Below are positions 1 through 31,900 of a DNA stretch of 64,000 nt, one piece after another. Origin of the DNA: Dictyophora rubrovolvata (Eukaryota > Basidiomycota > Agaricomycetes > Phallales > Phallaceae); assembly GCA_029959195.1 (NCBI GenBank), contig CP114123.1, positions 1,674,001-1,738,000 on the forward strand. The letters run 5' to 3'. Below the pieces are notes generated by a model. That model was not told the origin of the DNA. It saw only the letters and a list, made by a program, of their open reading frames with translations, and did no database searches. The stretch's first letter is position 1, and each line of letters opens with the position of its first letter. The position numbers and the translations under genes are program-made.

Positions 1-2926
1 AACGAGCGGAAACATTCAGTCTCGAATGGCGATCGAGATCGTGATAGACCCAAGTATCGTGACCCCACTAAACACGATCATGATTGGGAGGAGCAGCAGC
101 GCCACCATCCAGTTCTCCCGTCAATCGACCGAGGAGACAGGTATTCTCGTGTCTCACCTATCACGCACGCACCTCCTTCACTACCCCCTCACTGCCATCC
201 TGGTCCTTATCCACCGCAATATGGTTCTGATCATATTAATCGCGACAAGGAGCATTTTGAGCGTGACAGAGGAAGGGAAAAAATTTCACCGTCTATTCGG
301 GGACGCGATATCATCACACCGCCATTGCAGCGTTCTGGGTCTCCTGGCGCATCGGGGACTCCTATCGGAATGCCCACGGGTCAGCACGGGCAAATCTATG
401 GGTCTAATGTGGTGAATCCGAGCGTCAGCCCGACTATAGCTTCTGGTGGTAAGCAATTAGATGTCCATTCGTTGCTGAACCACAATAGTCATCATGGTGC
501 GTATTACGAAATCTGACCGTTTTTTTTTCTTCTAACCGACATTTCAGGTGCTGTCCCAGGCATGATTTCTCAAGGCTTGGAGAAGGAATGGGAACGTAGG
601 GAGAGGGAGCGCGAGCTTTCACCTAATTCTGCTACACTGCAGTCTTCTGGGGTGTCCCTCGGTATGCCGATATCCAATATGCCAATGTCATCAGGACCGC
701 AAGCGGGCAGTGTTGTTGGCCCCGCTGGTTCAGCTAACAATGTTTCTCCTGCCGTACCCAATGTCGGATCTAATTCCATCGGAAGAAAAAGAAAAATTAC
801 CATGGCTTGCAATTTTTGTCGTTGTGAGTGTCAATTCAGAATATTTTTTGGGGGGGAGGGAGTAGAAACATATTTATCGCTGATTATTATTTTTCTTTAG
901 CTCGTAAACTTAAATGTGATGGTCTAAAACCAGCTTGTGGACAATGTACCAAGAGGGGGAACACCTGCGATTACCAGCAGCATGCTGTTGCCCAACAGGG
1001 TCCTTCTGGTGTCCCAAAGGACGCACCTATGAGTTCTTCTTCCCAGTCGCGAGATCACCTCGCAGGTCAACCAAGCGCGATTCTGCCTCCCACGCATGTA
1101 AGCGGCGGTCAACTGACCTCTCCTGGCTTGCGACATAGGGAACGGGGGTACGGGCGCGAAATGGAGAGAGACAGGGATGGTTCGTATTATCATTCAGGTC
1201 GACCTTATTCGCCGCCACCACAACAGCAACAGCAACAACAAGGAGGTCCCGGTCAGTCTCACGCTCATGCTTACCCTCAACAGGGTTATTCCTCTTCCTC
1301 CAATTATCCTCGTATTAGAGAAGGCTCTCCCCAGTCCCAACACCACGTCAACGCTCACGGTGCTACACATACTTGGCGGTATACGTCTCAGTCTCACGCT
1401 CAAGCTCATGCAGCCGCTACTAGAGATTCTGACGTGGACGAACTCATAGAAGACCTTTCTGAGCACGAAGAAAGAAACTCTGACATGCGTTCACGCGGTA
1501 TGAAATCCAGCAGTCATCGAGATTTCGCAACGCATGTAGTTTATGAACAGACTAATGGACCAGGTGGCATGAATTCAACTTCTGCAAATGGGCGTGGACG
1601 CGTCAGCGTTGATATGCTTATTGTCGAAGCTCTTGGTGAGGGAAGTTCATCTAACGGACCTTTAGAAGACGATAATAGGACTGGACCTGCTGCTATTGGT
1701 GCAAACGGAGGCCGAAATAGGGACGGAGTGAAAGACTCTGAGAAGGGACAACAGCATGTCAGCCAACCTCCAAATCAGGCTCAGCCACCTTCTTCTGGTC
1801 AAGGCGGACATTACGAATCTGGAAGTTGGTATGAAATGAGTGTGGGGGTTATCGATGTCGGGAGTGAAGGCGACAAGAAGAAACGGCTGAACAGACAAAG
1901 TGCCAATTATGGAAGCAAAGCTGTTGCATGCGTACATTGTCGAGGTAAGCCAAATATCTAAATTGAAAAATAATATAAAAATTGTTAATATTGGTTTTGT
2001 TTTTGCCTTAATTTTTTTTTTTTGAAACTTTAGCACGTAAAACTCGCTGTGATGCTGTTCGTCCAGCTTGTGGAAATTGCGCGCGTCGATCCCTGGCTTG
2101 TTCGTACAACCACACAACTCCTTCACAGCCTAGGTCGAAAGGAAAGAAGGCGGCCGCGGCAGCAGCAGCCGCGAGTTCCAGCTCCAGCTCGAATAATAAT
2201 AATAGTAATCCCAATTCCGGCTCTGTGCCTGCTATGACGCCCAATGGTGTTATAGACCACGACATGAAACTTCAGCGAGGCAATGTTCCACCTCATCCGA
2301 GTCGCTCTCCAAATCACTCACGCAGTCCCGGTCAAATCGGAACACCACACCCACTCCCCAGCTGGCATCACGCATCTCAATCACGTCAAAATCATCCCCA
2401 CCCCCATCCTCATTCCCATTCTCATCCACATCCGCATTCACGTTCTTCACATTCATCATCTCACTCCCCAATTCGAGTGGATGATCATCGACTTCCCATT
2501 GAGGAAAGTGCTGAGCGGGAACGCCCACTGACGAGAAGTCCTCAACCGCCCATCGCGACATTAAATGTTCCTGAGCGTTCACGGTCGCGCTCCAGTTCAT
2601 CCGGGAGTTTATCAACAAGTTTGATGGAGAACGGAACTCATTCTAATAGTAATAGTAACAATAACGGCGGTGGGGGGAGTATAGCAGTTCCGATTTCTCG
2701 CTCCCGTTCGACGTCTAATTTCACTGGACCCAATTTACCTGAATTTGCGGGTGCAAAACGCAAGTCACCGGACGTCGCTGTTGAATTGATGGATGCCGCC
2801 AGCATAGAACGTGGAATTATACCTGACGAGAGAAGTAGAGAACGACCTGATAAAAGAAGAAAAGCCTGGGTAGAGAATGTCAGTAGCGATGCAGCCCATC
2901 TCTCTAACCAAGTAAGAGTTCAGTAA
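1..2926 (+). CDS. Zn2Cys6 regulator with two zinc clusters (5' end outside window)
   Basis: A nuclear DNA-binding regulator, open from base 1, so its start lies upstream. Exons 1-496, 548-823, 901-1944 and 2034-2926 join in frame to about 902 visible residues. Two complete fungal binuclear zinc clusters are seen: the first near visible residues 253-281 (CNFC, RSRKLK, C, then C-x2-C and a final C), the second near 600-628 (CVHC, RARKTR, C, DAVRPA, C-x2-C, C). Each is split by an intron at the same place. Between and around them lie Arg/Asp-, Gln-, Ser- and Gly-rich stretches, and after the second cluster come poly-Ala, Asn and a His/Pro/Ser tract (about 2390-2470). I see no fungal-specific regulator domain. 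Two clusters in one protein is unusual, since most members have one. The stop at 2926 could be avoided by a donor at the GTAAGA at 2912, so the 3' end is less certain. Confidence 0.85.
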
Positions 2927-30342: not shown

Positions 30343-31900
30343 ATGAACGCTTTTGCTTTAGAATACAGACAACTTTACCAGGTCACTTCTGAAAATGAAC
30401 CGACATATGACTTGTGGACTATCGATGACCCGCATCGAGCTTGGACGAACCCCCTTTCGCTGTCCCTCCGGGTGAAAGGATACAACGGTGCCCCCTATTG
30501 CATACTACTGAGCTCGAAAAAGATCTTCATAGTAATCCAGCTTTGTATCTCTATTGTTTCGTCCGGCCATAATCCATTGGAAGAACAAACGACTGCGGCA
30601 AAATTGTTCTCAATTAACGAAACACTGTTGTTTCATAGCCCAGGCTATGGTATCTTACCTTCAGATACTGTATCTCAAAACTCAGGTCGAGTTTCAGTCA
30701 TGGAATTGCATTTATCCGTAGATCGGAGTGTTCTTCCCTTCCTTGGGTACGCTGAGACATCTATAAGCGTCGTTAATCGTCACTCACCCCAACGCATACC
30801 GACTAACTTGCAGCAACCAGTATGGTTTGACCGACTATTTTGTCCCCAACCCTGGGATTCTTCAAGCCTCGTCCTATCCACCGCCCGAATATTATGGTGG
30901 TGGAGGTGCAGATCCACCAGACAGACCAAGCGGCAGCGGCAAGGACAAAGGACTTCAAAGTCCATGGCAAGATAATGAACAAGATTATCGGCAAGGTAGC
31001 GCAGGAGGAAGTTCCGGTGGAAACAATGAAGACAGTGGGCCGTCAAAACGAAAGAGTTCTAAAAAGACACCTATGGCTTGTCACCATTGCAGAAGTACTA
31101 ATCAAAGTTTCCTTTTTTGTCCCGCAAATTGTTCGGTATTTATGTCATATTGTTCAGGGCGTAAGTTAAAGTGCGACGGCGTACACCCAACATGTCGTCC
31201 GTGTGCCGATAAATCTCTGGTGTGCACGTATGATGTTCGTATTAAACGGCGGGGTCCCGGCAAAAAGAGTCTTCAACAAGAGTCCTCGACGGGACAGTCA
31301 GACACGACAACCCAGCAACCTTCGTCGTCGAGGACAGCGGGGTCATTTAGTGCTCCAATAGCCAATCTTCCTTCACCTCCCATGCCCCAGTACCCATATC
31401 AGCTCGGTGCGCCACCTTCAGGCCTCGAGAGTAGGGTTGTTTCTAGTCGCCTTGCTTCAGAGACTCGACACAGTGGACCGTCAACAGAAAGATACGCTGA
31501 AGACTATTCTTCTCGTGTCCATACGCAACAGCCAAGGCCATCGGGTTCCGCGTACTACCCACAGCAGCAGCAGCCGTCGTCGATGTCGTATCCTGGATAT
31601 CAGGAGTCATCATATAGAGATCAGTACCCGCCATACCGAGATCCGCCTCCATATCGAGATCAGCCCCCACTGCCGCCATTACCGCCTCCAGGCTATCGTC
31701 CAGCTGAACAGTATTATCGACAGGATTATCCGTCTGCGTCGTCGTCGTATACAGCTGAGTATTCCTCTCGACGCCAGCCGTATGCAGAAGAGGAAGAAGA
31801 GTATGCTTCAGAAGACGACAACACTACCTCGTCCCGACGCGAACCTAGTCCAGAATACGAAGGCGATATCAGAGGACGTGGCGCCGACACGCAGCGATAA
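30343..31900 (+). CDS. Zn2Cys6 regulator with Pro/Gln/Tyr-rich tail
   Basis: The firm part is exon 30814-31094 joined to 31158-31900. These give QYGLTDYFVPNPG, a Gly/Asp stretch, then the zinc cluster CHHCRRRKLKC, DGVHPTCRPC, ADKSLVC, a basic segment (IKRRGPGKK) and a long Pro/Gln/Ser/Tyr-rich region with repeats of YRD-P-P, ending in an acidic tail (AEEEEEYASEDD). The upstream exon is less sure. An intron 30747-30813 (branch-like GACTAAC before TTGCAG) joins in frame to an ORF opening at ATG 30343, giving 475 residues; an inner ATG at 30700 would give 356. The upstream ORF shows no family motif. No fungal-specific domain follows the cluster. The cluster intron sits at the same position and phase as in the regulator at 1-2926. 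Confidence 0.75.

Follow-up and report, generated by a model that had tools for sequence, protein, structure and literature searches.

The window (the whole stretch of DNA analysed, 64,000 nucleotides, G000:C7:1674001-1738000) opens at positions 1-2926 with the 3' part of one predicted gene, G000:C7:1671745-1676926 (+). Its product is very probably not simply a transcription factor with a doubled zinc cluster: the predicted architecture is that of a septin-like GTPase domain joined to two Zn2Cys6 clusters. We read this protein as a putative DNA-binding regulator that would be paired or tethered through its septin-like domain, and give this architecture and a loosely read mechanism, taken jointly, a probability of roughly 0.6.

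The genome examined amounts to 28.2 Mb in 11 contigs. Positions upstream of the window are given on the stretch L009 (C7:1668001-1678000), a window position being the L009 position minus 6000. The frame of the fusion gene starts at window -2255 (L009 3745), exon 3 contains window base 1, and the six predicted exons (Table 1) encode 1602 aa with a single stop in the joined frame. The initial annotation, which had the gene run from 1 to 2926, had placed its 3' end correctly and its start 2255 bases too late. It had also taken the product for one regulator: a single chain with two clusters stands, with no in-frame stop between them in the spliced frame and the best frame of six, but a plain regulator does not, since the septin-like domain encoded before the window makes of it a septin/zinc-cluster fusion. 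The three introns that it had proposed in this region all show GT..AG borders and leave the reading frame intact. All splice sites of the fusion gene are predicted, and the donor of intron 2 is weak (GTACTT). A consensus-like splice donor, GTAAGA, is present at window 2912, 12 bases 5' of the stop codon; an extra 3' exon after this point is possible, though the DNA beyond appears non-coding. Upstream of the fusion gene lies a gene that resembles, by eye, a 26S proteasome ATPase subunit of the Rpt5 type (L010 from 2612 to near L009 326).

Table 1. Predicted features of the fusion gene and of the neighbouring septin-like gene; positions are those of the window unless L009 is named.
Feature	Position	Strand	Description
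Exon 1	L009 3745-4265	+	Upstream of window; septin-like G domain, with exon 2
Exon 2	L009 4364-5441	+	Upstream of window; septin-like G domain, with exon 1
Exon 3	L009 5500-6496 = window -500 to 496	+	First codons complete the septin-unique element (SUE)
Exon 3, 3' part	1-496	+	Linker rich in proline and charged residues
Intron 3	497-547	+	GTGCGT..CAG, 51 nt; predicted from sequence only
Exon 4	548-823	+	End of linker, basic patch RKRK, cluster 1 Cys 1-2
Zinc cluster 1 (Zn2Cys6)	808-968, split by intron 824-900	+	aa 953-980, CNFCRSRKLKCDGLKPACGQCTKRGNTC
Intron 4	824-900	+	Phase 1; interrupts cluster 1 after CxxCR
Exon 5	901-1944	+	Remainder of cluster 1, most of 320-residue spacer, cluster 2 Cys 1-2
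Zinc cluster 2 (Zn2Cys6)	1929-2101, split by intron 1945-2033	+	aa 1301-1328, CVHCRARKTRCDAVRPACGNCARRSLAC
Intron 5	1945-2033	+	Phase 1; interrupts cluster 2 at the codon equivalent to intron 4 in cluster 1
Exon 6	2034-2926	+	Remainder of cluster 2, tail of low hydrophobicity carrying basic patches, stop TAA 2924-2926
Second divergent septin-like gene	12935-10352	-	780 aa, four exons: 12935-12522, 12432-12053, 11974-10549, 10474-10352

The septin-like part is recognised by several searches. On the spliced protein, the Pfam Septin profile scores 74.8 bits (cut-off 26.2, E 8.9e-21) over two stretches, the best at aa 21-192, and in the search of the own genome the same profile found exon 1 alone with 42.6 bits. 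The domain covers aa ~20-245 and 494-558, separated by a 248-residue insert that precedes the septin-unique element (SUE). When aa 1-574 were compared with the PDB by phmmer (E<=10), 43 of the 45 matching sequences were septins, with septin-9 as the best (4.7e-11) and the SUE as the best stretch in Cdc11; the remaining two were SLX4 (E 0.28). Five canonical septins of the own genome, two Cdc10-like, two Cdc3-like and one Cdc11-like (motif-named and spliced by eye), share with the domain the P-loop GQRCVGKS, the VH-CLYL strand, RVNVLP, RWG, SDF-LR and the SUE (aa 501-552), the latter being aligned with these five septins as well as with a second septin-like gene. On the septin criteria quoted from Pan et al. 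(PMC1931588), namely G1 GxxxxGK[S/T], G3 DxxG and G4 xKxD, the fusion protein has G1 in GQRCVGKS but DTPP at G3 and ARSD at G4, and with one of the three motifs present we classed it as septin-like, not as a septin. With G3 and G4 altered, the protein may no longer bind nucleotide or pair in a nucleotide-dependent way.

Compared with septins of the Cdc3, Cdc10, Cdc11, Cdc12 and AspE groups, the fusion protein thus has the P-loop, VH-CLYL, RVNVLP, RWG, the SUE and a score over the Pfam cut-off in common, whereas it differs by the broken G3 and G4, the insert before the SUE and the zinc clusters attached. The own genome apparently encodes two Cdc10-like and two Cdc3-like septins (L037, L038, L040, L041; motif-named), and no Cdc12 or AspE type could be made out among its at least 24 Septin matches. 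Hydrophobic residues (AILMFVWC) make up 20-24% of the insert, linker, spacer and tail of the fusion protein versus 42% of its septin part; we take these regions, which by composition fill about three quarters of the protein, as disordered. The linker from the septin part to cluster 1 has ~390 residues and the spacer between the clusters 320.

Both zinc clusters are complete, as had been claimed from the window alone: after splicing of introns 4 and 5, all six Cys of each fall into CX2CX6CX6CX2CX6C, and the distance first put at about 345 residues is 348 from first Cys to first Cys. Pfam Zn_clus (PF00172) scores 66.7 bits on the spliced protein (cut-off 21, E 2e-18, two stretches), and when the own genome is searched in six frames, the clusters score 30.9 and 31.7 bits separately, both above the same cut-off. 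This search, in which 33 candidates were scored, gave at least 17 matches, among which no other pair lies within one gene as judged by place and strand. Cluster 1 is located in the middle third of the 1602 residues and cluster 2 in the last third. Both clusters of the fusion gene carry R/K residues in the loop by which clusters of the Gal4 class contact DNA; basic patches (RKRK, KKKR, KRK, KRRK) are also present in the protein. Pfam recognised no family besides Septin and Zn_clus at E<=1 on the spliced protein, Fungal_trans (PF04082, the middle-homology domain) being absent at this threshold, and no coiled coil was seen by eye after cluster 1 or cluster 2. The fusion protein is thus like Gal4-type Zn2Cys6 factors in the canonical spacing, found twice, and unlike them in having two clusters, in their C-terminal location, in the lack of Fungal_trans and in the septin-like N-terminus.

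Recent internal duplication of a cluster was considered as the main account of the pair and rejected. Clusters 1 and 2 are identical at 10 of 25 non-Cys positions, whereas with the best of four other clusters of the genome (L003, L005, L033 and window 31148, picked from 15 others for equal Cys spacing) cluster 1 shares 13 and cluster 2 shares 12 of the 25. Each cluster being nearer to another cluster of the genome, a recent duplication is not supported, and with so few positions the argument holds only against a recent one. The intron position common to clusters 1 and 2 is no proof of duplication either, since by eye an equivalent phase-1 intron is also seen in the clusters of L005 and window 31148. 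The latter cluster (window 31148-31249, +) belongs to a separate gene, in which it is followed by a RRGPGKK stretch, and a similar one occurs in L005.

About 7.4 kb downstream of the end of the fusion gene, the second divergent septin-like gene scores 154.5 bits with Pfam Septin over three stretches and has no zinc cluster. It keeps G1 (GAKKTGKT) and G3 (DTPG), reads SRAD at G4 with R in the place of K, and has three inserts, one of them at the place equivalent to the 248-residue insert of the fusion gene. The SUEs of the two genes match at 43% over 53 columns (BLASTP 2e-11), across the junction of exons 2 and 3, and a phase-0 intron falls at the equal aligned point in both, between RK and EL in the fusion gene and between MK and SL in the second gene. 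By eye, the introns of the own Cdc11-like and Cdc10-like genes lie elsewhere in the SUE region, and no intron was seen there in the Cdc3-like genes. A search of the own genome with the G-domain part ranks the second gene (E 6.2e-7) slightly ahead of a Cdc10-like septin (4.5e-6), so that among the own-genome sequences compared the second gene is the closest septin relative of the predicted fusion gene, by a small margin. The common intron, the equivalent insert place and a tree of seven septins suggest the same kinship; this tree joins both divergent genes with 100% support, and its long branches and few sequences give it little weight. A reasonable course of events would be a local duplication of a divergent septin-like gene, with one of the copies capturing a zinc-cluster gene.

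Since the splicing of the fusion gene is a prediction, one has to ask whether two neighbouring genes were mis-joined, the first septin-like and terminating in exon 3, the second coding for a two-cluster factor under a promoter of its own in or after exon 3. Mis-joined septin models exist, A. nidulans aspE being described as erroneously fused with its neighbour (PMC11238149), and the second septin-like gene stops 24 residues past the SUE match. However, intron 2 splits the coding sequence of the SUE, and the second gene has a matching intron, which indicates that exon 3 begins within the septin fold. From the SUE to window 496, the last base before intron 3, exon 3 has no in-frame stop; among 20,000 sequences of like make-up drawn from a first-order Markov model, only 5 were stop-free (mean 8.4 stops). 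For the last part of exon 3 and for exons 4 to 6, the proposed frame ranks first of six with 0.20-0.26 bits per codon, and two non-coding control stretches give -0.25 to 0.03 in all frames. This test is not fully independent: its small codon model used the second gene and the septin part of the fusion gene itself as training data, and its background stretch includes one of the two controls. With a frame of coding type throughout, with no intergenic space and with an equal layout reported in P. ostreatus (PMC7295025), we regard a mis-joining as very unlikely.

The protein concerned, PoZCP55 of Pleurotus ostreatus, is described with three septin domains (PF00735) followed by two C-terminal zinc clusters (Hou et al., 2020, PMC7295025), and the septin/two-cluster layout was therefore already known, briefly, from another genome. 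According to this description, PoZCP55 forms a separate clade in a tree of 66 zinc-cluster proteins and is one of four PoZCPs with C-terminal clusters; the 66 proteins, deposited in GenBank as MN652925-MN652990, span 195-1386 aa, and Fungal_trans, found in 43 of them, is not required of the whole Zn2Cys6 family. Compared by description only, our fusion protein similarly has a septin domain and then two clusters, whereas it has two PF00735 stretches instead of three domains and, with 1602 aa, exceeds the PoZCP maximum, although gene models may differ. Among the matches listed, no other septin/zinc-cluster fusion was found in the literature. In two scans of the viral contigs of IMG/VR, 5 and 600 stretches respectively matched the patterns, none being confirmed as a relative by tblastn.

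Other observations concern the genome at large. For two of the nine peroxidase matches (exons L045 and L047), the nearest PDB entries are long manganese peroxidases (1mnp with its variants, followed by 4czn), with versatile peroxidases and manganese peroxidase 4 ranking behind them; 1mnp is from Phanerochaete and 4bm1 from P. ostreatus. As P. ostreatus is not known to have manganese peroxidases other than short ones, the genome examined probably belongs to another species. Such exons, apparently of the long manganese peroxidase type, point to a white-rot fungus. DUF6534, a basidiomycete family, has nine matches in the genome.

As to function, each cluster would contact its own CGG-type half-site, and the 320-residue spacer, presumably flexible, would let both reach independent half-sites. 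With neither a middle-homology domain nor a visible coiled coil, the septin-like domain is the most likely source of oligomerisation or tethering: it would let the protein oligomerise by septin G or NC contacts, or would tether it to the septin cytoskeleton. Taken alone, this mechanism of a putative regulator paired or tethered by its septin-like domain is tentative, and we would put it at slightly less than an even chance.

The canonical spacing of both clusters would also suit an ordinary Zn2Cys6 activator, the view of the initial annotation, in which one chain binds two half-sites and the septin part, off the G3 and G4 motifs, would be a passive remnant. Yet the septin fold is alignable from the P-loop to the SUE and PoZCP55 too is reported with septin domains (PMC7295025), which suggests selection on the septin part. 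Pfam at E<=1 also found no middle-homology domain, and we consider such an activator somewhat unlikely. A cytoskeletal septin-like protein, with clusters serving in protein contacts or zinc binding and not in DNA binding, would be in line with the N-terminal position of the septin domain and with the large share of insert, linker, spacer and tail, but the intact state of both clusters, their R/K residues in the DNA-contacting loop of the Gal4 type and the four basic patches speak against it, and it appears quite improbable. Returning to the regulator paired or tethered by its septin-like domain, a bolder form of it would be a conserved mushroom regulator linking gene expression directly to the septin cytoskeleton. 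Its septin-like domain would keep the protein parked in septin assemblies located at septa or hyphal tips; once it is released, the two linked clusters would act within a single chain on half-sites that are either paired or distant. We hold this extended form to be unlikely.

Zinc-cluster gene calls made from one window, or from cluster matches alone, may miss an entire N-terminal domain. Septins are cytoskeletal proteins and Zn2Cys6 clusters are DNA readers; a protein with both, probably present in two mushroom species, would be a candidate for a direct link of septation or hyphal growth to transcription.
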